Positions 11,263 to 26,959 of a DNA stretch of 64,000 nucleotides are shown piece by piece. The position numbers were made by a program, and so were the translations under genes. The stretch's first letter is position 1, and the number at the start of each line of letters is the position of its first letter. Source of the stretch: Tunicatimonas pelagia (GTDB lineage: Bacteria; Bacteroidota; Bacteroidia; Cytophagales; Cyclobacteriaceae). The notes below the pieces were generated by a model that was not told where the DNA came from, ran no database searches, and was given only the letters and a program-made list of their open reading frames with translations. The stretch covers positions 3,485,001-3,549,000 of the forward strand of contig NZ_CP120683.1 of the NCBI RefSeq assembly GCF_030506325.1, in the 5' to 3' direction.

Positions 11263-14004
11263 ATGCTTGTTACCGATGCCTCCATTGATGTAGAAAAAGT
11301 AGAAAATGATGCCCAATTTCTGAGCGAGTGCCTCCGCGAAGTACTAGAGTCGCTGGGTGAGCATCAATTAGCCGATACGCTCCAACAAGAACCCGCGACG
11401 ATGAACCGCAGCATGGTTCGCTTGTACGCTACTTATTTTCAGTGGCTGAACTTAGTAGAAGAAAATGCTACGGCTCAGTATCGTAGAAAGCTAGAGACTG
11501 AAGCTGGACTAGACCGCATTTCAGGATTGTGGGCCAAGGCGTTCCGTCAGTTATCCGAAGAGGGTTTTTCGGAAGAAGAGATTGCTCAATTACTACCCAA
11601 AATACGCATTGAACCCGTACTTACGGCTCACCCAACCGAAGCCAAGCGAGCTACGGTACTACGCCACTTACGCGATATGTACTTATTGCTAGTGAAGCGA
11701 GAGAACCCGGTGTGGACCCCGCAAGAGCAACAAGGTATCCGCAAGGCAATCAAGAATCAGTTGGAGATATTGTGGCGCACGGGTGAAATCTATTTGGAAA
11801 AACCGGCTGTATCCGACGAGCTGCGGAATATGATGTACTATCTTACCCACGTTTTTCCCCAGAGCTTAGCCTGGGCCGACCAACGATTGCGCGATGCTTG
11901 GAGCTACTCCGGCTTTGATCCTAAACAGCTTGATGGTTACCAGGCTCTGCCCCGAATTAGCTTTGGCGATTGGGTAGGGGGCGACCGTGATGGGCACCCT
12001 TTTGTAACCGCCAAGGTAACCCAGAGAACCCTGCTAGAACTTCGTCGGCAGGCATTACAACTCCATGCGAAAGATTTGGAGGGATTGGCGGCTAAGCTCA
12101 GCTTTACCAATATTCGTAATACAATACCCGATCGGCTGAACCAGAAAATTGAAAAGATGCAAGAGCTGATTGGCGAAGCGACTGAACTACCCCTGGCTCG
12201 TAATCAGAATGAACCGTGGCGCCAACTAGTTAATTTGATGCGCCTTCGCATACCGCTAGACGTGTATGATAACTTAGACGAAAAACCGTATTCCTACCAA
12301 CGTAGTACCGAGTTATCCGATGATCTGACTCTACTGCTGGAAACACTGAATGAAATAAATGCCCAGTCGGTAGCCCGTAACGAGGTAGAACCTTTGTTAC
12401 GAAAAGTACAAACGTTTGGCTTTCACCTTGCTGCGCTGGATATTCGTCAGAATAGTGCTTTTCACGATAAGGCGGTCACCCAGTTACTAGAAGCTGCTGC
12501 TCTTTCTTCGAATGATTTGCCTGACACTGATTATGCTAACTGGTCAGAAGAGCAGCGTATTGCTTTCCTCGAGCAGGAATTACAGTCAGCTCGCCCGTTT
12601 ACTCAGGTTGCCGCTTCACTGCCGCAAGAAGCTCAGGCAGTGCTAGATTGCTATCGGGTGGTGCATCAGTTTATTCAAAACTACGGTGCCAATGGGTTAG
12701 GCTCACTGATTATTAGTATGACCCGTAGTGTGTCGGATTTACTGACGGTTTATTTGTTAGGCCGGGAGGTTGGTTTGGTTTTCTGGCGAGAAGATGGGTT
12801 AGTCAGTGAACTTCCGGTGGTGCCATTGTTTGAGACGATTGATGATTTGAAGGGAAGCTCGGCAATTTTAGACAAGTTTCTTCAGCATCCCATCACCCAG
12901 CGAAGTTTGGCTTATCAACAAAAGCAAAAAGGGGAGGCTAATCCAGTACAGCAAGTGATGGTCGGCTACAGCGACAGTAACAAAGACGGGGGTATTTTAG
13001 CCAGTCTCTGGAACGTAAACCGAGGGCAACGCAACCTTACCGAAGTTGGAAAAAGACATGGGGTACGCATTCGCTACTTCCATGGTCGGGGCGGTACGGT
13101 CAGTCGGGGTGGTGGGCCCACTCATCGCTTTTTAGAATCGTTACCCCACCAAAGCCTACAGGGTGACTTCCGTCTGACCGAGCAGGGAGAAACCATTGCC
13201 CAAAAGTACGCCAACCTGATTACTAGCACCTACCATCTGGAACTGATGTTGGCTGGAACGACCAAGGCTACCATTCGCCAGCAGAGTGCAAACTCTTCCG
13301 ATCATCCGTTGGAGCCAATTATGGATTATCTGTCAGAAGTGAGCAGCGAATACTACGGAAAACTGCTGAAAGCTGAAGGCTTTATGGATTTTTATGCTCA
13401 GGCTACGCCCATTGATGTGATCGAGGCCAGTCGCATTGGCTCTCGTCCTGCCCGCCGTACCGGACAACGAACGCTGAATGATCTACGAGCTATTCCTTGG
13501 GTGTTTAGCTGGAGTCAAGCCCGGTTCTCTCTTACGGCCTGGTACGGAGTAGGTGCTGCTCTGGAGCAACTACAAAACGAACGCCCTGACGATTTTACCT
13601 TACTCTGCGAGCAAGCCATGAGCTACGCCCCGCTGCGGTACATCCTGACCAACTCAAGCTCGGGCGTACTGATTGCTGATGAATCTATTATGCACGAGTA
13701 CGCCGCTCTAGTAGAAGACAGTGAACTTCGCGATCGGTTTATGGAGCAGATTCTGGCGGAACTGCACCGAACCCAACGGGTTATTGAAACGATCTACGGC
13801 AGTAGCATTGAGGAGCGGCGCCCCCGCATTGCCAAAATGATTGCCATGCGTCAACCCAAGCTAGCTGCCCTACATCGGCATCAGATCTCCCAAATCAAAA
13901 CCTGGCGTAGCAATAAAGCCGCTGGTAATAGTGACGAAGCCATTCTGCTAGATTTGCTACTAACTGTGAACGCTATTTCGGGGGGGATTCGGGCTACGGG
14001 GTAG
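11263..14004 (+). CDS. ppc: phosphoenolpyruvate carboxylase
   Basis: A 913-residue enzyme that carboxylates PEP with bicarbonate to oxaloacetate, refilling the TCA cycle. The catalytic His123 sits in VLTAHPTEAKRA; the second signature VGYSDSNKDGGILAS and the glycine-rich FHGRGGTVSRGGGPTH loop are intact, and the protein ends GGIRATG, matching the conserved C-terminal (M/I)RxTG that reaches the active site. Length is normal for bacterial PEPC. Divergent from carbonic anhydrase, which supplies bicarbonate. Aspartate made from oxaloacetate feeds threonine synthesis, encoded nearby by thrBC. Confidence 0.97.
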   Translation: MLVTDASIDVEKVENDAQFLSECLREVLESLGEHQLADTLQQEPATMNRSMVRLYATYFQWLNLVEENATAQYRRKLETEAGLDRISGLWAKAFRQLSEEGFSEEEIAQLLPKIRIEPVLTAHPTEAKRATVLRHLRDMYLLLVKRENPVWTPQEQQGIRKAIKNQLEILWRTGEIYLEKPAVSDELRNMMYYLTHVFPQSLAWADQRLRDAWSYSGFDPKQLDGYQALPRISFGDWVGGDRDGHPFVTAKVTQRTLLELRRQALQLHAKDLEGLAAKLSFTNIRNTIPDRLNQKIEKMQELIGEATELPLARNQNEPWRQLVNLMRLRIPLDVYDNLDEKPYSYQRSTELSDDLTLLLETLNEINAQSVARNEVEPLLRKVQTFGFHLAALDIRQNSAFHDKAVTQLLEAAALSSNDLPDTDYANWSEEQRIAFLEQELQSARPFTQVAASLPQEAQAVLDCYRVVHQFIQNYGANGLGSLIISMTRSVSDLLTVYLLGREVGLVFWREDGLVSELPVVPLFETIDDLKGSSAILDKFLQHPITQRSLAYQQKQKGEANPVQQVMVGYSDSNKDGGILASLWNVNRGQRNLTEVGKRHGVRIRYFHGRGGTVSRGGGPTHRFLESLPHQSLQGDFRLTEQGETIAQKYANLITSTYHLELMLAGTTKATIRQQSANSSDHPLEPIMDYLSEVSSEYYGKLLKAEGFMDFYAQATPIDVIEASRIGSRPARRTGQRTLNDLRAIPWVFSWSQARFSLTAWYGVGAALEQLQNERPDDFTLLCEQAMSYAPLRYILTNSSSGVLIADESIMHEYAALVEDSELRDRFMEQILAELHRTQRVIETIYGSSIEERRPRIAKMIAMRQPKLAALHRHQISQIKTWRSNKAAGNSDEAILLDLLLTVNAISGGIRATG

Positions 14005-14051
14005 ACTAGTTGAGAGACTTTCTCTGACTTAAGATTTTATGTCAAGCTTGC

Positions 14052-14822
14052 TTATTGAAGGGTATTGTAATCTATTCTCTCAAATCGCCTCTCCTCATTA
14101 CTCAACTCTGACCAATTAAAATCGTACTGTTCATCTTCAGTCCAAGTTGTGGGGAAGTTAACAACTAAATAGTCACCTATACCACAATCGTTGCCTTCTA
14201 GTGCCATTAAAGCTGGACCAGGCTGAAAACTTATTGTTCTAAATTGTGATGACAGGAGAGCAGCGAGACCGGCAAATGCATCTAATAACGTCGAGAAATT
14301 AGCTTCTTGAAATGCATTTAATCGATCATGTTTAGCTCTGTTATATACCTGATACCAATCAATTGATTCGTTGCTATTCCAATTGGCGAAAGGTGCTCTA
14401 ATTCTTTGCTCTCCTCTCCATATTGGATATTCTATTGAGTAATCACTCAGTCGGTGAGTCTTATTTATTATTTCGTAATCATTCATATTCCAGGTTCGTT
14501 CAGATCTTTCTTGTCTATTCCTCGATACTGGATTAAATATGTTCTCTTTTAGAATTGCTTTAAAATTGGCTTCAACCTCGATACATATTCTCATTAAAAG
14601 TTCATGAGTTCGAAATGAGTATGTGTTACTATTAATGTCAGCTGGCTCAATTGCTTGAAATAGCTTTAAGAGATCTTGTTGAATTATGATGAAAGCTCTT
14701 ACGTAATGTTCCGGGTTTTGGCAATAATTCGGATCTGTAATATAAGCCCAGTCGCTATATCCAGAATTCGGGCCTTCTTTTACTGGTCTATAATTTCTAT
14801 GAAATGGCCTAATGAAACTCAC
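14052..14822 (-). CDS. hypothetical protein, AT-rich gene
   Basis: A 256-residue soluble protein of no family I recognise. It starts MSFIRPFHRNYRPVKEG, has a helical stretch around residues 40-100 (RAFIIIQQDLLKLFQAIEPA, ELLMRICIEVEANFKAIL) and an acidic Trp-rich end (TWTEDEQYDFNWSEL). No signal peptide or membrane helix. The gene is visibly more AT-rich than ppc and the other neighbours, with more AAA/ATT/TTA codons, which suggests acquisition. It stands alone on the minus strand between ppc and a Uma2 gene. The AYITDPNYC and WNMNDYEIINKTH stretches may help a profile search. Confidence 0.7.
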   Translation of the reverse strand: MSFIRPFHRNYRPVKEGPNSGYSDWAYITDPNYCQNPEHYVRAFIIIQQDLLKLFQAIEPADINSNTYSFRTHELLMRICIEVEANFKAILKENIFNPVSRNRQERSERTWNMNDYEIINKTHRLSDYSIEYPIWRGEQRIRAPFANWNSNESIDWYQVYNRAKHDRLNAFQEANFSTLLDAFAGLAALLSSQFRTISFQPGPALMALEGNDCGIGDYLVVNFPTTWTEDEQYDFNWSELSNEERRFERIDYNTLQ

Positions 14823-14936
14823 AACTCTTTTATGTTTATATTTAACTGCTCTATATTACATAGGTAGTGGTTTGCTCAAATGGAATATCTTTAACAATCA
14901 CTTTTACGTATCTCTCAATATACCACTCTATTTGTT

Positions 14937-15506
14937 ATGATTGCTGAAGCCGAAACTAAAATCACTCGCCGCTTATTTACGGTGGAAGAATACCACCAGA
15001 TGGCTGAAGTGGGTATTTTACACGAAGACGACCGTATTGAATTAATTCACGGAGAAATTATCCAAATGAGTCCAATTGGGAAAAATCACTCAGCCATTGT
15101 ACGTCGCTTGAATAACCTTTTAAAGAATTACTTAGAGTCAAACATACTTGTTGATGTACAAAATCCGGTACTTATCAATGAGCACTCAGAACCTGAGCCG
15201 GATATTGTGATTCTGCCGTTTCGGGAGGATTATTACGCTGAAACCGGAGTTACTCCAAGAGATGTACTGCTATTGATCGAGGTGTCAGATAGTACATTGA
15301 AATATGATAGGAATACCAAACTACCGCTTTACGCCACAGCAGGTATTCCTGAAGTGTGGATTATAGACGTTAATAAGAAACAGCTTGAAGCGTACCGTCA
15401 ACCGAGCGGAGATCGTTACCAATCAGTAACTACCCTCACTCGGGAAGATAATATTTCAGCCACTCAGCTATCACTGAATGCGCTGGTAAAAGAACTTATC
15501 GGATGA
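14937..15506 (+). CDS. Uma2 family endonuclease-fold protein
   Basis: A 189-residue Uma2 (DUF820) protein with a PD-(D/E)XK nuclease core. Visible are LFTVEEYHQMAEVGILHEDDRIELIHGEII at the N terminus (quoted in part; residues ~12-42), the SEPEPDIVILP strand with a candidate metal Asp near residue 85, LLLIEVSDST with a candidate Glu near 107, and KLPLYATAGIPEVWIID. Uma2 proteins are abundant in cyanobacteria and Cytophagales and their biological role is mostly unknown. It is a single gene, not part of an obvious toxin or restriction locus. Length is typical. Confidence 0.9.
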   Translation: MIAEAETKITRRLFTVEEYHQMAEVGILHEDDRIELIHGEIIQMSPIGKNHSAIVRRLNNLLKNYLESNILVDVQNPVLINEHSEPEPDIVILPFREDYYAETGVTPRDVLLLIEVSDSTLKYDRNTKLPLYATAGIPEVWIIDVNKKQLEAYRQPSGDRYQSVTTLTREDNISATQLSLNALVKELIG

Positions 15507-15549
15507 TTAATGAGTAATGACGAATGATTGACATAGTTTCCATTATTCA

Positions 15550-16617
15550 TTAAGCGTTAGACCCTACTGCATTCAAATCTTCAAAAGCGGCAGTTAGGCG
15601 TTTTACAAAGCTTTTCTCAGCTTCGCGTAGCCACACGCGGGGATCGTAGGTTTTCTTGTTGGGCTTATCATCGCCTTCGGGGTTACCGATCTGAGCTTGT
15701 AGATAATCTTTCTTATTTTCGTAGTAGCCCCGCACTCCATCCCAGAAAGCCCACTGCAAGTCAGTATCAATATTCATTTTAATTACTCCGTAGCCAATTG
15801 CTTCCCGGATCTCCTCTTGGGTAGAACCCGAGCCACCGTGAAACACGAAGTAAACTGGCTTAGCGGCGGTACTGTGCTTCTCTTCAATATGCTTTTGCGA
15901 ATCGCGCAGAATGGTAGGCGTTAACTTCACATTACCTGGCTTATATACCCCGTGTACGTTGCCAAATGCCGCCGCTACGGTAAATCGTTCGCCCACTTGC
16001 TTCAACTGTTCGTAGGTGTAAGCCACTTCTTCGGGCTGAGTGTATAGCTTAGAAGCATCAACATCAGTATTATCTACTCCATCTTCCTCCCCACCCGTTA
16101 CACCAAGCTCTACTTCAATTCCCATCCCTAGTGGGTTCATTCGCTCGAAGTACTTCTTGCTGATCTCTACATTTTCTTCTAACGGCTCTTCCGAAAGATC
16201 AAGCATGTGGGAGCTGAACAACGGGCGACTGTGCTGCTCGTAGTATTTTTCTCCGGCATCCAGCATTCCGTCAATCCAGGGTAATAGTTTCTTAGCTGCG
16301 TGATCGGTATGAAGAATGACAGGTACGCCGTAGTGCTTGGCCATGATATGCACGTGTTGAGCTCCAGCAACGGCTCCGGCAATAGAAGCCTGCTGACCGT
16401 CGTTACTAAATCCTTTGCCAGCATTAAAGGCTGCTCCCGAGTTAGAGAACTGAACAATCACGGCTGATTGCACATCGCGGGCGGTTTCCAGCACTGCATT
16501 AATAGAGTTACTACCGATGACATTAGCAGCAGGTAAGGCAAACTGTTTTTTCTGGGCGTATTCAAAAAATTCTATGAGTTGATCGCCGTAGAGTACGCCG
16601 GGTTCAAACTTTTTCAT
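15550..16617 (-). CDS. fbaA: fructose-bisphosphate aldolase, class II
   Basis: A 355-residue zinc aldolase of the class IIA (E. coli FbaA) type, cleaving fructose 1,6-bisphosphate to DHAP and glyceraldehyde 3-phosphate. It shows the N-terminal GVLYGDQLIEFFEYA, the zinc/active-site region VILHTDHAAKKLLPW (His ligand and catalytic Asp near residues 105-110), EVELGVTGGEEDG with the second metal region, and VFHGGSGSTQEEI. Class IIA length is usual. The lacI-type gene lies 46 bases upstream on the same strand, so the two are probably co-transcribed. DHAP made by the neighbouring acid-sugar pathway could enter gluconeogenesis here. Confidence 0.95.
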   Translation of the reverse strand: MKKFEPGVLYGDQLIEFFEYAQKKQFALPAANVIGSNSINAVLETARDVQSAVIVQFSNSGAAFNAGKGFSNDGQQASIAGAVAGAQHVHIMAKHYGVPVILHTDHAAKKLLPWIDGMLDAGEKYYEQHSRPLFSSHMLDLSEEPLEENVEISKKYFERMNPLGMGIEVELGVTGGEEDGVDNTDVDASKLYTQPEEVAYTYEQLKQVGERFTVAAAFGNVHGVYKPGNVKLTPTILRDSQKHIEEKHSTAAKPVYFVFHGGSGSTQEEIREAIGYGVIKMNIDTDLQWAFWDGVRGYYENKKDYLQAQIGNPEGDDKPNKKTYDPRVWLREAEKSFVKRLTAAFEDLNAVGSNA

Positions 16618-16663
16618 AAGAGATTAGGTAAAGTGGTTCAAAAATATTGGGAAGCGCAAACTA

Positions 16664-17671
16664 CTATTTTTTTACGGAATTTCGTTCCAATAGCCGAGTT
16701 TTTAGCACTACCTGTTCAATATCAGTTTTAGCATCACGCAACTGCTGAAACAGCAAGTGGGCTGCGGTTTCGCCCATTTGTTCCGGGTTTTGATCGATAG
16801 TAGTTAAAGACGGACTCACTACAGCGGTTACTGGATCATTATTGAAACCGACTAGCGCCATATCTTGAGGAATTCGTATACCGTAATCGCGTAAGGCTTG
16901 TAAGGCAGCAATGGCAAGTCGGTCACTCACGGCAAAAATAGCATCGGGTGGATTGGATAGTTGAAGCAGACGAACCGTTTGGTCGTAACCATCGGCCTCA
17001 CTGTAGTCGCAGTGCGCTACCAAGTTGGGGTCAAACGGTAGTTGGTGCTGTGCTAGCGTTTGTTGATAACCCCGAAGACGTTCATTACTGATCTCAACAG
17101 AAGATGGGCCAGCCAGTAGTCCAATACGTTGGCATCCGTGCTGAATTAGAAAAGATACAGCCTGCGCTGCCGCTAAAAAATTATCAATAATTACCTGTGA
17201 TACTGATAGCTCGGGACACACTCGGTTGAAAAAAACTAAAGGAACACCTCGGTTCAGTACTTCTTGAAAGTGGTCGTACTGCTTAGTTTCCCCCGCCAAG
17301 GATACGATGATTCCATCAACCCGACTTAGCAGTAACGATTTGATGTTAGCTACTTCTTGTTCATACGATTCATTAGACTGGCAGATGACAATATTGTACC
17401 CTTCTCCAATCGCAACTGCTTCAATTCCAGTAATTGCCGAAGCATAAAACGCATAGCTGATTTTAGGGACAATCACTCCGATAGTCTGGGTACGCTGCAT
17501 CCGCAGATTCATAGCCAGCGGATTGGGCTGAAAGTCTAGTTCCTTGGCTAATGCTTGTACGGCCTGCTTCGTAGTTCGGGAAATACGGGGGTGGTCGCGT
17601 AGTGCGCGGGAAACTGTAGAAATGGAAATATTCAGTTGCTCTGCGATTTCTTTTAGCGTAATAGGCTTCAT
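16664..17671 (-). CDS. LacI family transcriptional regulator
   Basis: A 335-residue repressor. The N-terminal helix-turn-helix and hinge (ITLKEIAEQLNISISTVSRALRDHPRIS, quoted in part, residues 4-30; hinge near 45-60) are classic LacI; residues ~60-330 form a periplasmic-binding-protein-like effector domain (TIGVIVPKISYAFYASAITGIE start). It is divergent from the lipoprotein/dehydrogenase/kinase cluster and upstream of fbaA on its own strand. A perfect palindrome at 17861-17876 in the intergenic region is a good operator candidate. The ligand is unknown; a sugar, sugar acid or phosphorylated intermediate of the adjacent pathway is likely. Confidence 0.95.
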   Translation of the reverse strand: MKPITLKEIAEQLNISISTVSRALRDHPRISRTTKQAVQALAKELDFQPNPLAMNLRMQRTQTIGVIVPKISYAFYASAITGIEAVAIGEGYNIVICQSNESYEQEVANIKSLLLSRVDGIIVSLAGETKQYDHFQEVLNRGVPLVFFNRVCPELSVSQVIIDNFLAAAQAVSFLIQHGCQRIGLLAGPSSVEISNERLRGYQQTLAQHQLPFDPNLVAHCDYSEADGYDQTVRLLQLSNPPDAIFAVSDRLAIAALQALRDYGIRIPQDMALVGFNNDPVTAVVSPSLTTIDQNPEQMGETAAHLLFQQLRDAKTDIEQVVLKTRLLERNSVKK

Positions 17672-18026
17672 ATCTGAAGACTAAAATAGAAAAATAATTA
17701 TACTGTCTAGCTCCCCCTTGATCTTGCACTTTTCTAATAGCATTTCTCTGTGGTGCTTTCTAAACAAGGGTCATTTTCAAGTTGCAACTTTCCGGAGTAG
17801 AAGCAAGCTTTTACGACTGATACCAAAAAAAATAGCCTGTTAGCATTTACTATTTGTAGTGTGCAAACCTTTGCACAAAATAGATTACTGATAATGTAAT
17901 TAATTCGAATTGTTCCTTTAAGAAAAGATCATAACTTCATCGCTGAGCTTTAAAACGAAAATGGCTTTCGCTTACACAATCAAAGGCTGATAATTAAACT
18001 TTTCTAAGAAAATCTTACTACAACCT
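17672..18026. promoter_or_regulatory. divergent control region of the LacI/acid-sugar locus
   Basis: 355 AT-rich bases without a gene. It must contain the promoters for the lacI-fbaA unit and for the rightward catabolic run. The only clear signal is the 16-base palindrome at 17861-17876. Confidence 0.55.
17861..17876. promoter_or_regulatory. candidate LacI-family operator palindrome
   Basis: GTGCAAACCTTTGCAC: 7-base arms GTGCAAA/TTTGCAC are exact inverted repeats around a 2-base centre. The size, symmetry and GCAAA..TTTGC core are like operators of LacI/GalR regulators. It lies 185 bases above the regulator start and 150 bases above the first lipoprotein gene. No experimental support. Confidence 0.6.
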
Positions 18027-19862
18027 ATGCGTAATTACTCACTTTTGAATTTATTACTGCTAATCAGCTGGATTACTGCCTGCCAACCGGCCGAAGAACC
18101 GGAATCGCTCCCTACCTACCAGCAATGGCATAAAGTAACCCTATCATTTGAAGGACTTGAGACCAGCGAAGACGCTGAAGACAACCCCTTTACCAACTAT
18201 CGGCTGATCGTCACCTTCTCTAATGGAGATCAATCTTATGAAATACCAGGTTTTTATGCTGCCGATGGTAATGCTGCGGAAAGTAGTGCCACCAGTGGAA
18301 ATATCTGGCAGGTTCGGTTTGCGCCCAATACGGAGGGAGAGTGGACTTATTCCGCATCTTTCCGAAAAGGCGACAACATCGCCATTAGCACCGATGCTAA
18401 TGCGGGTGAGCCAATAGCTTTTGATGGTGAGCAAGGCTCGTTTCAGGTAGTAGCTTCCGATAAGCAAGGGAAAGACTTTCGAGCAAAAGGTCGATTGCAG
18501 TATGCAGGAGAACGCTACCTGAAATTTGCGGGTACAGATGAGTACTACCTAAAAGGCGGAGCGGGCAGCCCTGAGAACTTACTAGGATACGTAGATTTTG
18601 ATGGTACTGAGTTTGGCGGGGAAGAAGGGCATAAAGATGGCGAAGCCCCGGTAGATAAGCAGTTACACGTTTACGAAGATCATATAAAAGATTGGAATGA
18701 AGGCGACCCCAGCTGGCAGGGCGGCAAGGGAAAAGGTATCATTGGCGGACTTAATTATTTGGCCGGAAAGGGTATGAACTCCCTTTATTTTCTGACCATG
18801 AATATTAAAGGCGATGGCGAAGATGTGTGGCCCTACACCGGCTACGATGAGCGCTACCGCTTTGATTGTAGTAAACTAGATCAGTGGGAAACAGTGTTTA
18901 CTCACGCCGACAGTTTGGGCATCTTGCTACACTTCTTCACCCAAGAAACTGAAAATGAACTATTGTTGGATAATGGGGACTTGGGCCCACAGCGTAAGCT
19001 TTATTACCGCGAGCTCATCGCCCGTTTCGCTCATCACTTGGGAGTAGCCTGGAACATGGGAGAAGAAAACGGTTATGCTGAGTTTACCCCCGATTCTCAG
19101 AATGACGATCAACGCCGGGCGATGATTAGCTACTTTAAAGAAACCGATCCTTATCAAAACTTTGTAGCACTGCACACTCACGCTGCCCAGAAAGAACGCG
19201 ATGAGGTTCTAGAGCCATTATTAGGTTATGAAGATCTGGACGGGCCTTCCTTGCAAATTGGTAGACCTGCAAAGGTACACGATGAAACTAAGCACTGGAT
19301 AAGCGAATCGGGAGAAGCAGGAAAACAGTGGGTAGTCAACCTGGATGAAATTGGCCCATACTACCACGGTGTGTTCCCCGACGATATTGATCCTGAGCAC
19401 GATACTATCCGCTATGAAGTGCTGTGGGGTAACTTGATGGCGGGTGGCGGTGGTGCCGAATGGTACTTTGGCTACCTCTACGGCGACAGCGATTTAGGAC
19501 TAGAGACCTGGCGTACCCGCAACAATATGTGGGATCAAACCCGCTACGCTGTGTCTTTCTTTCATGATAACTTGCCGTTCTGGGAAATGGAGTCGGCGGA
19601 TGAACTAGTAGATGCTGAAGAAACGTACTGTTTTGCCAAACCCGGCGAGGTCTATGCTATCTATTTGCATAGTGTTATCACCACCAATCTTAACCTGGAA
19701 GAAGGAAATTATTCCGTACAGTGGTTCGATCCTGAGAACGGAGGTGATTTGCAAAGTGGTAGCGTTACCGAAATCAGCGGGGGAAGTAATGTCTCAGTCG
19801 GTAACGCTCCATCCGGTGGTGATGAAGATTGGGTGGTGCTGATACGTAACCAGAATGGATAG
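18027..19862 (+). CDS. DUF5060/collagen-binding-domain lipoprotein, putative glycoside hydrolase
   Basis: A 611-residue lipoprotein: signal peptide with lipobox ITAC (Cys19), an N-terminal beta-sandwich DUF5060 (about residues 35-140, IWQVRFAPNTEGEWTYSASF), a central TIM-barrel-like catalytic region (about 160-500, LNYLAGKGMNSLYFLTMNIKG and HHLGVAWNMGEENG), and a C-terminal sandwich like the putative collagen-binding domain (VYAIYLHSV...YSVQWFDPENGG). The same order occurs in DUF5060/DUF4038 (GH140-like) glycosidases that act on plant or algal polysaccharide side chains. WNMGEENG offers a candidate acid/base Glu. First gene of the rightward catabolic run, so likely the outer-surface or periplasmic enzyme feeding it. 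Confidence 0.85.
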   Translation: MRNYSLLNLLLLISWITACQPAEEPESLPTYQQWHKVTLSFEGLETSEDAEDNPFTNYRLIVTFSNGDQSYEIPGFYAADGNAAESSATSGNIWQVRFAPNTEGEWTYSASFRKGDNIAISTDANAGEPIAFDGEQGSFQVVASDKQGKDFRAKGRLQYAGERYLKFAGTDEYYLKGGAGSPENLLGYVDFDGTEFGGEEGHKDGEAPVDKQLHVYEDHIKDWNEGDPSWQGGKGKGIIGGLNYLAGKGMNSLYFLTMNIKGDGEDVWPYTGYDERYRFDCSKLDQWETVFTHADSLGILLHFFTQETENELLLDNGDLGPQRKLYYRELIARFAHHLGVAWNMGEENGYAEFTPDSQNDDQRRAMISYFKETDPYQNFVALHTHAAQKERDEVLEPLLGYEDLDGPSLQIGRPAKVHDETKHWISESGEAGKQWVVNLDEIGPYYHGVFPDDIDPEHDTIRYEVLWGNLMAGGGGAEWYFGYLYGDSDLGLETWRTRNNMWDQTRYAVSFFHDNLPFWEMESADELVDAEETYCFAKPGEVYAIYLHSVITTNLNLEEGNYSVQWFDPENGGDLQSGSVTEISGGSNVSVGNAPSGGDEDWVVLIRNQNG

Positions 19863-19886
19863 TTAGCTTAATCATTGGCCAAGCAG

Positions 19887-20390
19887 ATGCCGATTACGTT
19901 ACGTACGGCTACTATTGACGATTTAGCACTCTTGCAGCATTGGGATAAACAACCCCACGTCAAAGCATCGGACAGTGATGAGGACTGGAATTGGCAATAC
20001 GAGCTGCAACGCTTTCCCAAGTGGCGGGAGCAGTTGATCGCTGAGTTAGACGGCAGACCTCTTGGCTGTATACAAATTATTGATCCGGCCGAAGAAGAGT
20101 CGCACTACTGGGGCAATGTGGAAGCGAACCTACGAGCTATTGATATCTGGATTGGCGAAGCCGAAGACCTGAGTAAAGGCTACGGAACCGTTATGATAAA
20201 CCTCGCACTAAAACGCTGCTTTGACGATGAAAAGGTCACGTCAGTGCTGATTGATCCGCTGGAGACCAACCACGGGGCTATTCGCTTCTACGAGCGCATT
20301 GGATTCCAGTTTGTGGAGCGAAGAACCTTTGAGGATAGTCAATGCATAGTGTATAGACTCGCCCGAACAGACTGGGAAATGAGGAATTAA
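19887..20390 (+). CDS. GNAT acetyltransferase, AAC(6')-like
   Basis: A ~167-residue acetyltransferase. The frame can start at TTG 19875, but ATG 19887 (MPITLRTATIDDLALLQHWD) places the first strand at the usual distance, so I prefer it. GNAT motif A is visible as IDIWIGEAEDLSKGYGTVMINLAL, quoted in part (residues ~88-112, acetyl-CoA loop SKGYGT), and motif B as NHGAIRFYERIGFQFVERR. The pattern LRxATxDDLxLLxxWDxxPHV with IDIWIG is close to aminoglycoside 6'-N-acetyltransferases, but many such homologues are not resistance genes. It lies inside the acid-sugar locus; its substrate is unknown. Confidence 0.85.
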   Translation: MPITLRTATIDDLALLQHWDKQPHVKASDSDEDWNWQYELQRFPKWREQLIAELDGRPLGCIQIIDPAEEESHYWGNVEANLRAIDIWIGEAEDLSKGYGTVMINLALKRCFDDEKVTSVLIDPLETNHGAIRFYERIGFQFVERRTFEDSQCIVYRLARTDWEMRN

Positions 20391-20427
20391 TTCATTTAGG
20401 AAATTACAACTTAAACAGCAACTAAAC

Positions 20428-21183
20428 ATGATCTCAATCATCAAGAAAACACCTTACTACCCCTTTACCATCTTACTGAGCTTGCTAGTATATGGTGCCT
20501 GTCAACCAGCTTCTACCACTGAAGCTGTTCAGCAGGAGGAACCCCAACCTAAAGTAGAAGAGCCATCAATATTTGAAGAAGTAGATGGCGTATTAGCCGT
20601 AGAAGCTGAACACTTCGTTGACCAAACCGATACGCTCGTTCGAAAGTGGTACATCGTAGAGAAAGAAACATCCTCTCTGCCTACTCCTGATCCTGACGAA
20701 AACCATGCAGCAACTGCCAGCGGTGGGGTGTACCTGGAAGCTTTGCCCGATACTCGAACCACCCATGACGACGGGCTAACCGAGGGGGAAAACTTTTTTC
20801 CCGAACCTAATCAGGCTGGCATTCTGAATTACCGGGTCTATTTTAATACTCCGGGTAAATACTACGTATGGGCGCGTACGCACTCTACGGGTACTGAAGA
20901 CAACGGTATTCACGTAGGACTGGACGGCGAATGGCCCGAAAATGGCAAACGAATGCAGTTCCACGCCCACAACGATAAGTGGACGTGGGAAAGTCGGCAG
21001 CGTACCGAAGAGGTTCACTCGGGAGTGCCCGAGCAAATTTATCTTATGATTGAAGAACCCGGGGAGCATACCGTCTCATTTTCTATGCGAGAGGATGGCT
21101 TCGAGTTTGATAAGTGGGCCATGACACTAGCTTATGAAGCTCCCGAAGGCATCGGGCCCGAAGCCAATATTTACAATAAATAG
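20428..21183 (+). CDS. lipoprotein with GH115 C-terminal-like carbohydrate-binding domain
   Basis: A 251-residue lipoprotein (signal peptide, lipobox YGAC near residue 25, then a Gln/Glu/Pro-rich linker) carrying a single beta-sandwich domain. Features such as VLAVEAEHFV, GGVYLEALPDT, LNYRVYFNTPGKYYVWARTHSTG and DGFEFDKWAMTL resemble the C-terminal module of GH115 glucuronidases and related carbohydrate-binding domains. No catalytic module is attached, so it may be a surface glycan-binding protein. It sits 38 bases after the acetyltransferase gene and 18 bases before the dehydrogenase gene, in one apparent operon. Confidence 0.78.
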   Translation: MISIIKKTPYYPFTILLSLLVYGACQPASTTEAVQQEEPQPKVEEPSIFEEVDGVLAVEAEHFVDQTDTLVRKWYIVEKETSSLPTPDPDENHAATASGGVYLEALPDTRTTHDDGLTEGENFFPEPNQAGILNYRVYFNTPGKYYVWARTHSTGTEDNGIHVGLDGEWPENGKRMQFHAHNDKWTWESRQRTEEVHSGVPEQIYLMIEEPGEHTVSFSMREDGFEFDKWAMTLAYEAPEGIGPEANIYNK

Positions 21184-21201
21184 AATAAGCGAACACATTT
21201 T

Positions 21202-22254
21202 ATGAAGAATTACAAAATTGCGGTGGTTCCTGGCGACGGAATCGGAAACGAGATTGTTCCCGCCGGCTTGAGCGTTCTAGAGGCCGCCGCTAAAAAGCAC
21301 CAGTTTACCTTAGAAACCGAGCAATTTCCTTTCGGGGCGGGTTACTACAAACAGCACGGAGTTTTTATGCCGGATGATGGGCTGGAAACCCTCAAACAAT
21401 TTGATGCCGTATATTTTGGTGCGGTGGGTGACCCCGAGGTAGACGATACTTTACCCGCTATGCTATATACCTTTCGGGTTCGCACAGCATTTCAGCAGTA
21501 CGTAAACTACCGTCCGGTAAAATTGCTACCCGGCATTGATAGCCCCTTGCGCTATAAATCACATCAGGATATTGATTTTGTGGTGGTTCGGGAGAATAAC
21601 GAAGGTGAGTTTGTGCAAAACGGGAAAATCATCCACCCTGACCAGCCCTACGGATTAGCCACTGACACCAGTGTATTTACCCGGGCAGGCATTGAGCGTA
21701 TCGCCCACTATTCTTTTAAGCTAGCGCAAAAGCGCCGAAAGAAGGTTACCAATGTTACCAAATCCAACACGCTTATCAATAGCTTAGCTTACTGGGATCG
21801 AGTGATTGAAGAAGTATCAGTGCAGTACCCTGATGTAACTTACCACAAAATGTACGTGGATAATGCCTCAGCTAGCTTTGTTCTAAAGCCGGAAGTGTTC
21901 GACGTAATCGTCACTACCAATATGATCGGCGATATTTTGAGTGATTTGGGTGGAGCAATTATGGGTAGCTTAGGTCTGGGACCGAGCGGAAATATCAATC
22001 CCGAAAAAGAGTTTCCTTCCATGTTCGAGCCCATTCACGGCTCCGCTCCCGATATTGCCGGACAAGGCATTGCCAACCCGGTAGGTTCTATCTGGTCGGG
22101 TGCCCTGATGCTAGAGCACTTGGGAGAAACTGAAGCGGCCCAGGACATTGTAAAGGGTATTGAGGCTACCACCCAAAAAGGAATTGTCACCGTAGATTTA
22201 GGAGGTACCGCCAAAACTACCGAGATTGCCGATAGTGTAATTGAAAATATGTAG
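21202..22254 (+). CDS. tartrate dehydrogenase-like isocitrate/isopropylmalate dehydrogenase family enzyme
   Basis: A 350-residue NAD-dependent beta-decarboxylating dehydrogenase. Start VVPGDGIGNEIVP, substrate loop LYTFRVRTAFQQYVNYRPVKLLPG, DFVVVRENNEGEF, TNVTKSNTLI with the catalytic Lys, and NMIGDILSDLGGAIMGSLGL with metal Asps are all intact. The VRENNEGEF form is that of the tartrate/D-malate dehydrogenase group rather than LeuB (VRELTGG). The family oxidises 2-hydroxy-3-carboxy acids with loss of CO2. A DUF1537 kinase lies downstream in the same run, so a four-carbon hydroxy acid or its 4-phosphate is a plausible substrate. Confidence 0.9.
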   Translation: MKNYKIAVVPGDGIGNEIVPAGLSVLEAAAKKHQFTLETEQFPFGAGYYKQHGVFMPDDGLETLKQFDAVYFGAVGDPEVDDTLPAMLYTFRVRTAFQQYVNYRPVKLLPGIDSPLRYKSHQDIDFVVVRENNEGEFVQNGKIIHPDQPYGLATDTSVFTRAGIERIAHYSFKLAQKRRKKVTNVTKSNTLINSLAYWDRVIEEVSVQYPDVTYHKMYVDNASASFVLKPEVFDVIVTTNMIGDILSDLGGAIMGSLGLGPSGNINPEKEFPSMFEPIHGSAPDIAGQGIANPVGSIWSGALMLEHLGETEAAQDIVKGIEATTQKGIVTVDLGGTAKTTEIADSVIENM

Positions 22255-22302
22255 GAACACGACGGTTCGTCGCGCAATTAATCAAGTTCCTACCATAGAA
22301 TT

Positions 22303-22935
22303 ATGAAAACACCCATTGACCTAACCTTGCCCTACGACTCCGATATGCCGGGAGTCACCATTGAGATTGCCAAGACGCTGGAGAGCGACGGCTGGAACGC
22401 CCGCACGCTGCACCTTTACTCTCATGTGGGCACTCATATGGATGCCCCTCTTCATTTTGGGGTCACCGATCAAAGCATTGACCAAATTCCGCTGACTGAT
22501 TGTATGGGCCCCGCTTGGGTAGTGCACCTGCCTGACTTGCCTGAGCAGTACCTGATCGAAATAAAGGATTTAGGCGATGTAGTCGAAAAAGTAGAAGCGG
22601 GTGATAGCCTACTGTTACGTACCGGCTGGAGTCAATACCTGCGTCAATCGAAGTACCGCGATGGGCTGCCCCGCATTAGTGAAGAACTGGCCGAATGGTG
22701 CGTAGCGAAGAAAATAAAGATGCTGGGCGTGGAAGCTCCATCGGTGGCGGATGTCAACAACCTGCCGGAGGTAACCAAAATCCATCAAATTCTGCTAGGC
22801 GGAGAAATCGTGATTATTGAAGGGCTAACCAATTTGGATAAAATCCAGCAAGAAAAAGTGCAACTCATTGCTCTTCCCCTAAAAATCCAGGGTGGTGACG
22901 GTTCTCCCGCTAGGGTTATTGCTTTGGAAGAGTAG
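22303..22935 (+). CDS. cyclase family protein (kynurenine formamidase-like hydrolase)
   Basis: A 210-residue metal-dependent hydrolase of the cyclase family (PF04199). The signature HVGTHMDAPLHFG (residues ~45-57) supplies the metal ligands; GDSLLLRTGWSQYL and GVEAPSVAD follow in the expected order. Members hydrolyse N-formylkynurenine, lactones or cyclic amides. In this locus a sugar-acid lactone is a reasonable guess, but no sequence feature proves it. It follows the dehydrogenase gene by 48 bases and the next frame is open straight after its stop, so it belongs to the same transcript. Confidence 0.88.
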   Translation: MKTPIDLTLPYDSDMPGVTIEIAKTLESDGWNARTLHLYSHVGTHMDAPLHFGVTDQSIDQIPLTDCMGPAWVVHLPDLPEQYLIEIKDLGDVVEKVEAGDSLLLRTGWSQYLRQSKYRDGLPRISEELAEWCVAKKIKMLGVEAPSVADVNNLPEVTKIHQILLGGEIVIIEGLTNLDKIQQEKVQLIALPLKIQGGDGSPARVIALEE

Positions 22936-23047
22936 TTGAAGCAGAAATCTATGGAAGAAATTCATAAACCATTAATGATACGAATCGTGCGTTGGTCTGA
23001 AAGCTTATATAGCTCAGGGGCTGTATACGGACATACAACTACGTATC

Positions 23048-23118
23048 AATCCCCCCTCCCCCCCTTCGCCAAGGGGGAATACGCTTCTCCCCCTTTTCTA
23101 AAGGGGGCTAGGGGGATT
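23048..23118. repeat. GC-rich double-hairpin REP-like repeat
   Basis: A ~70-base palindromic unit: outer arms AATCCCCC and GGGGGATT, with two inner hairpins CCCCTTCGCCAAGGGG and CCCCCTTTTCTAAAGGGGG. This runs-of-C/runs-of-G arrangement resembles dispersed intergenic repeats of several Bacteroidota and cyanobacteria. It lies in the 5' part of the open frame that leads to the serine hydrolase and argues that this part is not coding. Confidence 0.7.
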
Positions 23119-23136
23119 TATTCAGTAGTATTACAG

Positions 23137-24306
23137 TTGCTCTTAATATACCGTCTATCGCTGAGGTACATCAGGTACAAACACCTAACTTACTTTGTTG
23201 GCATCATTATTATTCTGAGCAGCTGCTCCCCACCCCAACCTCAAGAAAACGCTACTGAAACTACTCCAGCTACATCCGAAATGATCTTTCCTGACGAGGA
23301 TTGGCAAACGGCTACTCCCGAAAGTCAGGGAATAGATGCTGAAAAGTTGGAAGAATCGGTACAATATCTAGCAGATCATTGCTTCGATGACAAAGTAGAA
23401 GAGTTGATGATTATCCGTAATGGCTACGTCATCTATCAGGGCGATAGCATTGATAAGGTGCATAATATCTGGTCGTGTTCTAAATCATTTACAAGCACCG
23501 CGCTAGGTTTAATGATTGAAGACGGCTTATGCCAGCTTGATGATAAAGCCGCTACTCACGAACCCCTGCTTACTGAACTATACCCTGAAGTAACACTCCG
23601 ACAATTCGCCACCATGACTTCCGGTTACAACGCCGTAGGTGACACTCGCTGGGAAGGCGACAGCAGCGCCGACTGGTCGTGGACACCTTACCAACCGGGT
23701 GAGCCGAATTTTGCTCCCGGTACGGCATATGCCTACTGGGATGAAGCCATGATGATGAAGGGACGAACACTAACTCAAATCCTCCAGAGTGATCTACACG
23801 AATACCTAACCCAAAACCTAACCGAACCCATTGGGATGGGCAAGTGGTCGTGGGGACAGGAGGGTGAACTAAATGGCATTCCTATCCGGAACGGTTGCAC
23901 CAACGTACATGTATCGGCTCGTCAACTCGCTCGCGTTGGTCATCTGTTTCTGAATAAAGGTAATTGGAACGGCCAACAAGTCGTGCCAGAAGAGTGGGCT
24001 ATGGCGGCTATTCAAACCCAAGTACCCGCCAGCATTCCGGTGGCTGATACGGATCGGAAGAGTGCCAACGGCAGTGGTTCCTACGGCTACAACTGGTGGA
24101 CGAATGGAATGACTGACGAAGGACGATTCATGCCAGATTCTCCCGAAGGCACCGCCTACATGAGCGGCTTAAATCATAATGTTTGCTTTGTTATTCCTGA
24201 ATGGGATATGGTGTACGTCCGTATGGGTGTCGATGGCAATCCTCCTGAAGGGAAACATGTGATACACAATGAATTTATTAAACGATTAGAGCAAGCCTTC
24301 CTTTAG
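23137..24306 (+). CDS. serine hydrolase (beta-lactamase/class C fold), lipoprotein
   Basis: The frame is open from TTG 22936, but its first 67 codons cover a REP-like hairpin and would place the lipobox LSSC at residue 97, far too deep. Starting at TTG 23137 gives a 29-residue lipoprotein signal (basic start, hydrophobic YFVGIIIILSSC), so I use that start; ATGs at 22951 and 22975 are alternatives. The mature part is a beta-lactamase-related serine hydrolase: WSCSKSFTS contains the SxxK nucleophile, a Tyr-x-Asn-like element follows in the AYWDEAMMM region, and an (H/K)xG box is less clear. Such enzymes hydrolyse esters or peptides. It stands between the cyclase and kinase genes. Confidence 0.83.
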   Translation: MLLIYRLSLRYIRYKHLTYFVGIIIILSSCSPPQPQENATETTPATSEMIFPDEDWQTATPESQGIDAEKLEESVQYLADHCFDDKVEELMIIRNGYVIYQGDSIDKVHNIWSCSKSFTSTALGLMIEDGLCQLDDKAATHEPLLTELYPEVTLRQFATMTSGYNAVGDTRWEGDSSADWSWTPYQPGEPNFAPGTAYAYWDEAMMMKGRTLTQILQSDLHEYLTQNLTEPIGMGKWSWGQEGELNGIPIRNGCTNVHVSARQLARVGHLFLNKGNWNGQQVVPEEWAMAAIQTQVPASIPVADTDRKSANGSGSYGYNWWTNGMTDEGRFMPDSPEGTAYMSGLNHNVCFVIPEWDMVYVRMGVDGNPPEGKHVIHNEFIKRLEQAFL

Positions 24307-24308
24307 TA

Positions 24309-25709
24309 ATGCCTACCACCTTACAACAGCTACTACAAAATGTTCCTCCTGCACCTAAAGAAAGCTTACTGCCAGAGATTCGGCAGAAACTTTCTTCTAT
24401 GCAACAAACGATTGTGGTGTTAGATGATGATCCCACTGGCACCCAAACGGTGTACGATGTTCCCGTACTCACCGAGTGGTCTACCGAGGTAATTGAAGCT
24501 GAGTTTCGGCAGGCTACGCCACTATTTTTTATTCTGACCAATTCGCGTAGTCTTCCTATCCGAAAGGCCAATCAGTTGGCGGCTACTATTGGTCAAAACT
24601 TGAATAAAGCTGCTCAGAAAGCCGGACGAAACTTTTTCGTCATCAGCCGTAGCGATTCCACATTACGAGGACACTACCCTAACGAAGTAAATGCCTTGTT
24701 AGTCGGGATGCAGCAAACAGAAGCAATCCGAATTTTAATTCCCGCCTTTCTAGAGGGAGGACGCTATACGATCAATGATACGCACTACGTGCAAGAAGGC
24801 AATGATCTGATCCCCGTAGGCAAAACGCCCTTCGCTCAGGATAAATCTTTCGGATTTTCCGCTTCCAACCTGAAAGATTGGATAGAGGAAAAAACCGAAG
24901 GAGGGGTAAAAGCTAAAGACGTAGTTTCATTAAGCTTAAGTGATCTTCGCCAAAAAGGGGCGGGCTACGCTACTGAAACCCTAAATGCTGCTGCTTCCAA
25001 CGCTACCTGCATCGTCAACGCTGTCCATAGGTTCGACTTGGAGATTTTTGCTTTAGGCTTACTGAATGCTGATGTTCCGGTAATTTGTCGTACGGCGGCT
25101 TCTATTGTCCCGGTGCTGGCGGGGTTGGCTCCTAAACCATTACTCACGTGCGATCAGCTTTTACCCCAAGGTTCCGCTAACGGTGGGTTAATTGTAGTAG
25201 GCTCCTACGTTCCTAAATCTACTGCCCAACTGGAACATTTGCTGGAACACGCTTCAGTTCAACCGATCAAATTAGACGTAAACCAAATTCTAGAACATTC
25301 CGACCCAGAAGATTTTGCTCAGCAGGCGGCGCAGCAAATAGACCAGCTTCTTACTGATCAGCAAGATACCGTAGTCTATACTAGCCGCGATTTAGTTTCG
25401 GGGCAGGATAAAGAAGAAAATCTAAAAATCGGGCAGCGGGTTTCGTCTTTTTTGACCAATGTTATTAAACAGATTAGTATTAAGCCCCGCTACATTCTCG
25501 CCAAGGGTGGAATTACTTCCAGTGATACGGCTACGAAGGGACTAGGAGTAAAAAAAGCCAATGTACTCGGGCAGATTCTCCCGGGAGTTCCGGTCTGGAA
25601 ATTAGGTGAGGAAAGTAAATTTCCCGAACTCACGTATATCGTATTTCCGGGTAACGTGGGCGAAGCTGATTCTATTACTAAAGTGATTAACCAACTAAAA
25701 ACGAACTAA
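24309..25709 (+). CDS. four-carbon acid sugar kinase (DUF1537, OtnK/DtnK-like)
   Basis: A 466-residue kinase of the DUF1537 family, which phosphorylates threonate, erythronate or related four-carbon acids at C4 with ATP. The N-terminal acid-sugar-binding domain opens with VLDDDPTGTQT (residues ~38-47) and contains FVISRSDSTLRGHYPNEV; the C-terminal nucleotide-binding domain contains RYILAKGGITSSDTATKGL and FPGNVGEADSI. It overlaps the MFS gene by one base (TAATG) and starts 2 bases after the serine hydrolase stop, so translation is coupled. Usual partners are PdxA2 or OtnC aldolase; neither is here, whereas an isopropylmalate-type dehydrogenase is. Confidence 0.93.
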   Translation: MPTTLQQLLQNVPPAPKESLLPEIRQKLSSMQQTIVVLDDDPTGTQTVYDVPVLTEWSTEVIEAEFRQATPLFFILTNSRSLPIRKANQLAATIGQNLNKAAQKAGRNFFVISRSDSTLRGHYPNEVNALLVGMQQTEAIRILIPAFLEGGRYTINDTHYVQEGNDLIPVGKTPFAQDKSFGFSASNLKDWIEEKTEGGVKAKDVVSLSLSDLRQKGAGYATETLNAAASNATCIVNAVHRFDLEIFALGLLNADVPVICRTAASIVPVLAGLAPKPLLTCDQLLPQGSANGGLIVVGSYVPKSTAQLEHLLEHASVQPIKLDVNQILEHSDPEDFAQQAAQQIDQLLTDQQDTVVYTSRDLVSGQDKEENLKIGQRVSSFLTNVIKQISIKPRYILAKGGITSSDTATKGLGVKKANVLGQILPGVPVWKLGEESKFPELTYIVFPGNVGEADSITKVINQLKTN

Positions 25710-26959
25710 TGGCCAGACGTTACTGGATGGTGGTCGGCACCTTTTTACTGACCCTGCTGCTGTACATCGACCGAATTTGTATTTCGGTAGCCAAGGAACC
25801 TATCGTGCAAGACCTCAACCTGAGCGATGAGCAGATGGGCTGGGTACTATCAGTCTTTGCATTGGGCTACGCGCTATTTCAGACTCCGGCAGGCATCTTA
25901 GCTGATCGCCTCGGCCCTCGGCGGGTGCTTACCGCCGTGGTGACCTTCTGGTCGCTGTTCACCGCACTGACCGGAGCCGCCTGGAATTTTACATCCATGC
26001 TGGTAGTTCGCTTGTTGTTTGGAGCCGGTGAGGCGGGAGCCTTTCCGGGCATATCTCGTGCCGTGTTCTCCTGGATTCCCTTGCAAGAACGGGGCTTGGT
26101 TACGGGTATTAATTTCTCTGGCTCTAGGTTAGGAGCGGCGTTTGCACTGCCATTTGTCGCTTGGCTCATTCTCACGCTGGGCTGGAGAATGAGTTTTGTA
26201 GTATTAGGAGCTATTGGAGTAGTATGGGCCGTGGTATGGTACCTGATTTTCCGCGATGATCCCACCGAACATTCCGGCTTATCGGTGACTGAACAGGATT
26301 TTATTCGAGCCAATCGGCAGCAGGTTGACCCGGCGGTAGCTAAAGAACCGCTCAGGGCGGGTAGCCTAATTGGCTCTAAGAATATGTGGTTGGCAATGGG
26401 ACAGTACTTTTGTAGTAACTTCACCTTTTTCTTCTGCCTCACTTGGCTATTCCCCCATCTGAAAGAAAAATACGCCCTAGAAACGCTGGAAGCCGGATTT
26501 TATGCCTCAGCCCCTTTAGTACTCGGAGCACTGGGTAACTGGTTCGGGGGTTGGTGGATTGACCGTATTTACCGTCAGGGAAACTGGACACTCTCCCGCC
26601 GTCTACCTGCCGTCGTCGGCTTTGGATTGGCCGCTATCGGCTTAGTCGTGAGCGTATACATGCAAACCCCGCTCACGGCAATTATCTTTCTGAGTATCGC
26701 CATCTTCGGAGCCGATATGACCCTTAGCCCGTCCTGGTCGTTTGCGGTGGATATTGGGCGGCAGCACGCCGGAGCGGTATCGGGTACCATGAATATGGCC
26801 GGGAATATTGGAGCGTTTATTACGGCTCTGGCTTTTCCCTACATGCAATCGTGGACGGGTTCGGAAGTTCCCTTTTTCTTTGTAGGGGCTGGGCTAAATG
26901 TTGTGGCTATCTTCTTGTGGCTATTTATGCAACCGGATAAACAACTGGAAGAGTACTGA
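25709..26959 (+). CDS. MFS transporter, anion:cation symporter (hexuronate/acid-sugar type)
   Basis: A 416-residue twelve-helix importer. YIDRICISVAKEPIVQDLNLSDEQMGWVLS at the N terminus (quoted in part, residues 20-45) and GILADRLGPRR between helices 2 and 3 are typical of the ACS branch of MFS, which takes up organic acids such as hexuronates, galactonate and tartrate with a cation. It is the last gene of the run and overlaps the DUF1537 kinase gene by one base. This makes import of a sugar acid, followed by oxidation and phosphorylation, the natural reading of the locus. Confidence 0.92.
   Translation: MARRYWMVVGTFLLTLLLYIDRICISVAKEPIVQDLNLSDEQMGWVLSVFALGYALFQTPAGILADRLGPRRVLTAVVTFWSLFTALTGAAWNFTSMLVVRLLFGAGEAGAFPGISRAVFSWIPLQERGLVTGINFSGSRLGAAFALPFVAWLILTLGWRMSFVVLGAIGVVWAVVWYLIFRDDPTEHSGLSVTEQDFIRANRQQVDPAVAKEPLRAGSLIGSKNMWLAMGQYFCSNFTFFFCLTWLFPHLKEKYALETLEAGFYASAPLVLGALGNWFGGWWIDRIYRQGNWTLSRRLPAVVGFGLAAIGLVVSVYMQTPLTAIIFLSIAIFGADMTLSPSWSFAVDIGRQHAGAVSGTMNMAGNIGAFITALAFPYMQSWTGSEVPFFFVGAGLNVVAIFLWLFMQPDKQLEEY

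Follow-up and report, generated by a model that had tools for sequence, protein, structure and literature searches.

What does a DUF1537 kinase do beside a dehydrogenase of the tartrate/isopropylmalate type? The question is raised by a 64,000-nt stretch of the Tunicatimonas pelagia genome (NZ_CP120683.1, positions 3,485,001–3,549,000 of the forward strand; hereafter the window). A run at 15550–26959 contains eight plus-strand genes, from a glycosidase-like gene starting at 18027 to a major facilitator superfamily (MFS) gene ending at 26959, with a LacI-family regulator and a class II fructose-bisphosphate aldolase (FBA) on the opposite strand. On balance, we read the run as a cassette under LacI control that serves an oxidative route for a sugar acid, and its conserved set, kept in distant bacteria, probably breaks down a plant or algal sugar acid. 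An initial annotation of this DNA had also described a route for acid sugars that includes a secreted protein resembling glycosidases; that picture is supported here, and its interpretation as a whole is partly supported.

Relatives of the dehydrogenase, a Phe variant (TTDH-F), were sought by scanning contigs with a three-row alignment; 111 were confirmed, and the best 80 of these were taken. Together with the window and L015, which was reached via the kinase, these make 82 unique loci, a count that omits L014 and L016 as duplicates of L024 and L025. Genes up to 10.5 kb from the dehydrogenase were counted by tblastn. A cyclase-family hydrolase (CYC) is nearby in 80 of the 82 loci, the MFS importer in 75, the DUF1537 kinase (KIN) in 68, a Gfo/Idh/MocA protein (GFO) in 67, and the secreted glycosidase-like protein (GHx) in 45, followed by LacI (35), GntR (22), and FBA (6). 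Flanks of 3 kb or more upstream and 8 kb or more downstream are available for 61 loci: CYC and MFS are present in all 61, GFO in 57, and KIN in 52. The full-flank loci without a nearby GFO are the window, L022, L068, and L084. The neighborhood first noted in the window is conserved in relatives, and it consists of TTDH-F, CYC, KIN or a transaldolase-family protein (TAL), MFS, and GFO. The loci are labelled Flavobacteria, Cytophagales, Saprospiraceae, Balneolales, Planctomycetes, KSB1, and Fibrobacteria, and one metagenome-assembled genome (MAG), L029, is alphaproteobacterial by name.

Since 80 of the 82 loci had been selected by their dehydrogenase, we ran an independent test of co-occurrence. 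In 296 Bacteroidota genomes, the tartrate dehydrogenase model (E ≤ 1e-100) found six members, four of the Phe type (the genome of the window, G256, G369, and G437) and two of a Tyr type (L118 and L119, about 40% identical). A kinase profile (E ≤ 1e-60) found exactly the four Phe-type genomes, where both genes are on one contig with a gap of at most about 2.1 kb; the G437 kinase match is in two pieces. The pairing of kinase and dehydrogenase, already pointed out in the initial annotation, exceeds chance. At E ≤ 1e-20, the kinase was found in 7 of the 194 genomes of the order, with the dehydrogenase nearby in four (the genome of the window, G049, G180, and G193). Kinases of 41–46% identity in G069, G082, and G109 have no dehydrogenase in the stretch examined, which is a short contig in two cases, so the wider kinase subfamily serves other loci too. 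By eye, a kinase relative (41%) at L017 9055–12513 sits near GntR, MFS, and Asp/Glu-racemase-like genes, with a split transketolase pair running divergently; the dehydrogenase of the cassette was not found there.

The genes of the window were scanned with Pfam and NCBIfam. All those named in the initial annotation are present at the positions it gave, and the GNAT gene had gone unmentioned. The features are as follows.

15550–16617, minus strand: class II FBA, probably housekeeping (TIGR01520, 562 bits, cut-off 347.7)
16664–17671, minus strand: LacI-family regulator, divergent from the cassette (PF00356, PF13377)
17860–17877: predicted LacI-type operator, TGTGCAAACCTTTGCACA (pattern match)
18027–19862, plus strand: secreted glycosidase-like protein GHx (DUF5060, TIM barrel, and Collagen_bind_2 in Pfam)
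19875–20390, plus strand: GNAT acetyltransferase (PF13523, 87.7 bits)
20428–21183, plus strand: secreted protein with a GH115_C-type domain (PF17829, 40.1 bits)
21202–22254, plus strand: tartrate/isopropylmalate-type dehydrogenase, Phe variant, TTDH-F (Iso_dh, PF00180, 321 bits; TIGR02089, 490.9 bits)
22303–22935, plus strand: cyclase-family hydrolase and candidate lactonase, CYC (PF04199, 106.2 bits)
22936–24306, plus strand: serine hydrolase, beta-lactamase family (PF00144, 75.3 bits)
24309–25709, plus strand: DUF1537 acid-sugar kinase of a distinct subfamily, KIN (PF07005, 160.7 bits; PF17042, 134.8 bits)
25709–26959, plus strand: MFS importer, probably for a sugar-acid anion (PF07690, 201.2 bits; TIGR00893, the D-galactonate transporter subfamily, 264 bits, under the cut-off of 395)

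In the oxidative route, a secreted glycosidase would free a sugar or sugar acid that the MFS importer would take up. GFO, which is encoded elsewhere in this genome, would oxidise C1 to give a lactone, and CYC would open the lactone. TTDH-F, with NAD+ and Mg2+, would then oxidise the free acid before phosphorylation, yielding an oxo-acid, or a ketose after loss of CO2. KIN would phosphorylate this product, which would enter central metabolism as dihydroxyacetone phosphate (DHAP) or a related phosphate. In a variant of the route, TAL would take the unphosphorylated product instead.

KIN is a member of the DUF1537 superfamily, with scores far over the two Pfam cut-offs of 25 and 28.3, and its profile reaches 4xfm, 1yzy, and 4xfr. 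It had been taken for a known threonate- or erythronate-type kinase, which is not supported: KIN reaches 83.6 bits with the NCBIfam model for D-threonate kinase (cut-off 450), 45.1 bits with that for 3-oxo-tetronate kinase (cut-off 350), and 19.5 bits with that for OiaK (cut-off 700).

What would most simply place the dehydrogenase step ahead of the kinase step is a natural exchange of the kinase for TAL. TAL is present in 8 of the 82 loci (L045, L052, L056, L060, L064, L081, L092, and L097; PF00923 at 85 bits in L064), KIN was not found in any of these, and the two occur together in none of the 82. On a quick dehydrogenase tree, the exchange takes three changes, two of them forced by starred branches, whose stars deserve caution. 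A DUF1537 gene was not seen in six of the eight TAL genomes, all eight of which are MAGs; the DUF1537 proteins of the other two are 26% identical (L131) or unmatched by cassette kinases at 1e-8 (L132). Because TAL replaces KIN while the dehydrogenase is kept in genomes without a seen DUF1537 gene, TTDH-F probably acts ahead of phosphorylation rather than as a stand-in for PdxA2 on a 4-phosphate. Only two full-flank loci are without both KIN and TAL. The genome of one of them, L084 (a Saprospiraceae MAG), has a second locus with KIN (44%) and GFO (55%) at L130 3250–9848, the other half of a split cassette, where a DUF5060-like protein, a sulfatase, and a kelch gene were also seen by eye. The genome of the other, L071, has a 44% identical DUF1537 gene in a different context (L129 4837–10714), beside an FGGY-kinase-like gene, a DUF5060-like glycosidase, and a GntP-type permease (by eye). 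The exchange of kinase for TAL limits the possible chemistry and opens the pathway to experimental test.

The same evidence bears on the direct replacement of PdxA2, one of two chemistries put forward in the initial annotation. DUF1537 kinases are known from threonate use through DtnK and PdxA2. Under direct replacement, KIN would make the 4-phosphate of a C4 acid, and TTDH-F would oxidise C3 and remove C1 as CO2, giving DHAP. KIN is indeed a DUF1537 kinase, the D-threonate kinase model matches all 21 scanned members (far under its cut-off), and the dehydrogenase is presumably a fold relative of PdxA. As the initial annotation had stated, the run lacks both PdxA2 and OtnC, in that none of ten scanned window proteins, to which the OtnC search was limited, matches PdxA or PF00596, which we take to be the OtnC family. 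Nor is a PdxA2 linked to the kinase elsewhere: the sole PdxA match in the genome (366 bits) is about 2.1 Mb away, and 84 searched loci gave a single tblastn match to PdxA near the cassette, in L064, whose genome has no seen DUF1537 gene. This lack of linkage would suit a replacement. However, the dehydrogenase is retained where no DUF1537 kinase was seen, KIN falls well short of the D-threonate kinase cut-off, three arginines suited to a free carboxylate are kept throughout (see below), and neither GFO nor CYC would have a clear job. We therefore consider direct replacement quite unlikely, and the second chemistry of the initial annotation, oxidation before phosphorylation, fits better. A further DUF1537 route for threonate, LtnD-OtnI-OtnK-OtnC, is described in PMC12540250. 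The cassette resembles the threonate and erythronate routes in combining a DUF1537 kinase with a dehydrogenase, but it has no linked PdxA2, its kinase is far under the DtnK and OtnK cut-offs, and its dehydrogenase belongs to the tartrate/isopropylmalate family.

TTDH-F contains the residue set of beta-decarboxylating dehydrogenases, with R94, R104, R130, K187, D220, D244, and D248 each conserved in 82 of 82 loci. We take the three arginines to bind the carboxylate on the carbinol carbon, the Lys to be catalytic, and the Asp residues to bind metal. As arginines holding a carboxylate are kept in every locus, the substrate of TTDH-F is suggested to be a free acid. Position 137 is Phe in 82 of 82 loci, a count to be read with the fact that the retrieval pattern ENNEGEF included this Phe; the 10 of 82 rows without that string came via another pattern, and the G256, G369, G437, and G486 loci, found by profile, likewise have Phe. 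A Tyr occupies this position in 3flk, 1w0d, and 3u1h and in L118–L121, and it is presumably the general acid of the isocitrate/isopropylmalate fold.

Could the cassette simply serve tartrate or D-malate use, with TTDH-F making glycerate or hydroxypyruvate from tartrate and KIN acting as a glycerate kinase? The window protein passes the cut-off of TIGR02089 (470.4), the curated tartrate dehydrogenase model, so automatic annotation would probably misname it; cassette members L043 (469.0) and G256 (455.7) fall under this cut-off. A parallel is also offered by two plasmid tartrate loci, L120 (Allorhizobium plasmid pAtS4c) and L121, in which the order is MFS, tartrate dehydrogenase, and glycerate kinase. 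Like such TtuC-type operons, the cassette has an MFS gene and a tartrate-dehydrogenase-type enzyme adjoining a kinase. Unlike them, its kinase is of the DUF1537 family and matches no glycerate kinase model in Pfam or NCBIfam, Phe replaces Tyr, and a cyclase and a Gfo/Idh gene are added. The cassette dehydrogenases also form a clade apart from L120 and L121 at full support in the SH-like approximate likelihood ratio test (SH-aLRT) on the quick tree. Both plasmid enzymes have a Cys aligned to R94, so the three arginines are no hallmark of tartrate dehydrogenases as such. Glycosidases, GFO, and CYC would remain unexplained, and tartrate or D-malate use appears rather improbable to us.

The loss of the Tyr may instead point to a different reaction. 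Speculatively, and with low confidence, TTDH-F could be an oxidoisomerase rather than an oxidative decarboxylase, oxidising the C2 hydroxyl of a free aldonate and then allowing a Mg2+-driven acyloin shift. Protonation of a carbanion would then be unnecessary, and the absence of Tyr from every member would be accounted for; in this tentative scheme, the three arginines might hold the C1 carboxylate of the aldonate. If true, TTDH-F would represent a second, unrelated fold for the reaction of apionate oxidoisomerase, an enzyme that we take to be similar to ketol-acid reductoisomerase (KARI).

GFO, the fifth gene of the conserved set, is displaced in this genome. No Gfo/Idh gene is near the window cassette, and the orthologue is at C1:2757209–2758228, about 750 kb away and beyond the sight of the initial annotation. 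It is 82% identical to GFO of the close relative L021, and by eye the gene downstream matches the gene that follows GFO in L021. Because this L021-like neighbor is kept, the operon has probably been split by rearrangement. The closest solved relative of GFO is 5uhw, both by profile (231.8 bits, next 98.6; 166 bits with a single sequence) and by Foldseek (6.4e-38, next 4.4e-28). The database names 5uhw only as an oxidoreductase from Agrobacterium radiobacter; we take it to be a D-apiose dehydrogenase.

The relation to 5uhw brings in a D-apiose route without RuBisCO-like protein, in which GFO would be the apiose dehydrogenase, CYC the apionolactonase, TTDH-F the apionate oxidoisomerase, and KIN the 3-oxo-isoapionate kinase. 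The AlphaFold model of GHx (mean predicted local distance difference test score, pLDDT, 86.8) adds some weight, since its Foldseek matches include the GH140 apiosidase 8t9w along with 4n0r and the GH5 ManDH5; these indicate a general GH-A-like barrel, and in the profile search only the C-terminal part of 8t9w was matched, weakly (22.5 bits). The oxidative D-apiose pathway shares with the cassette a 5uhw-like Gfo/Idh protein, possibly a lactone-opening hydrolase, an oxidising enzyme, a kinase of the DUF1537 family, to which the known pathway kinase also belongs, and a secreted protein with a GH-A-like fold. In contrast, the oxidising enzyme of the cassette comes from another family, its importer is MFS rather than ABC, a RuBisCO-like protein is present in only 6 of 35 cassette genomes (29 are without one), and the hydrolase families presumably differ as well. 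Sulfatases, a rhamnosidase, or GH88 in some neighborhoods are, we believe, atypical of apiose glycans. The same kinds of steps are found in a published apiose cluster (PMC11747546), which comprises a lactonase, apiose dehydrogenase, apionate oxidoisomerase, 3-oxo-isoapionate kinase, and decarboxylase. Two further loci in the genome of the window bear on this route.

L133 (C1:4550000–4569900) 10456–17664, minus strand: apiose-type locus (RuBisCO-like protein; Gfo, 308.5 bits to 5uhw)
L013 8961–11352, plus strand: OiaK-like DUF1537 kinase (453.9 bits, cut-off 700)

The apiose-type locus also has two substrate-binding proteins, a permease, and an ATPase, by eye the parts of an ABC importer. Its Gfo is closer to 5uhw than cassette GFO (308.5 against 166 bits), and the RuBisCO-like gene is about 1.05 Mb from the cassette. 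The OiaK-like kinase, one of two DUF1537 genes in this genome, adjoins a protein with weak KARI similarity and is about 1.15 Mb from the apiose-type locus. Because the genome has this separate locus and kinase, D-apiose is probably not the cassette substrate; the cassette was rejected as the canonical apiose locus, and a D-apiose route lacking the RuBisCO-like protein is unlikely.

The substrate of the oxidative sugar-acid route is then most likely an aldose or uronate outside the UxaC and canonical apiose routes. The cassette was also considered as a replacement for the usual hexuronate pathway; this was rejected, as 34 of 35 cassette genomes, a selection from the 82, carry UxaC. A Pfam survey covering 93 of 212 neighbor proteins, plus 20 chosen ones, points to no single substrate: the commonest neighbors, sulfatases, account for 5 of the 93. 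Sulfatases, a rhamnosidase, GH88, and alginate-lyase-family and glucuronoyl-esterase-family proteins appear as single-locus neighbors. These would fit uronate-bearing glycans without proving them. 4-O-Methyl-glucuronate was considered because L014 carries a glucuronoyl-esterase-family gene; no demethylating enzyme was found among the proteins scanned. A five-gene cassette in the groups named above, with its own operator in many of them, points to a widespread sugar acid, and we found no description of a breakdown route for such an acid in the open-access literature searched.

The control by LacI is indicated by a predicted operator, TGYGCAA-N(1-5)-TTGCRCA. There are 35 sites in 25 loci, which are 25 of the 35 LacI-bearing loci and none of the 47 others, although the pattern was drawn from LacI-cassette intergenic regions and counts on the same loci are not fully independent. 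L038 has a site and its LacI, absent among called open reading frames (ORFs), is present by tblastn. For 21 of the 25 loci, 31–162 bp separate the nearest site from the dehydrogenase match downstream; in four (the window, L021, L022, and L024), the site precedes the glycosidase gene. The reversed pattern gave no matches and mono-nucleotide shuffles gave 0.1 per 1.5 Mb set. Besides the window operator, the 7.29 Mb genome contains no exact match to the pattern; the displaced GFO therefore has none.

Several points weigh against the oxidative route as drawn here. Gene order leaves the order of reactions unfixed. KIN is far under every curated DUF1537 cut-off, and its relatives of 41–46% identity exist without the dehydrogenase. 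L071 is without TAL and without a KIN close by, its DUF1537 gene being in another context, and since the TAL genomes are MAGs, a kinase may have been overlooked in them. TAL keeps the lysine of the IKIPAT/VKIPAT motif, presumably the Schiff-base Lys, in the six sequences aligned, but it has Asn where transaldolase 7bbx has Asp, making plain aldol cleavage doubtful. CYC is a putative lactonase: H41, H45, D47, H51, H161, and E173, the conserved His/Asp/Glu set of PF04199 hydrolases to which we ascribe a metal role, are invariant in 21 of 21 aligned sequences, and its nearest solved relatives, kynurenine formamidases and isatin hydrolases, act on amides. As for regulation, ten LacI loci have no exact operator, and a GntR gene is nearby in 22 of the 82.

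The LacI-adjacent FBA had been proposed as a dedicated pathway enzyme, which is not supported. It is the only PF01116 gene, and so the only class II FBA, in the genome and is thus probably housekeeping, though two other lineages, L032/L054 and L089, also have an FBA gene next to the cassette.

The remaining genes of the run are less widely shared. The GH115_C-type protein cluster is present in 17 of 84 loci and the serine hydrolase in 7 of 84. GHx and the GH115_C-domain protein have lipoprotein-like N-termini by eye, and no solved relative was found for the secreted protein c9. The GNAT gene sits between the two secreted-protein genes; it resembles acetyltransferase models of NCBIfam but scores far under their cut-offs. 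A palindromic repeat (23045–23121, with 34-nt arms that are 76% complementary) lies early in the serine hydrolase ORF, whose start was probably called too far upstream, the true start being farther downstream.

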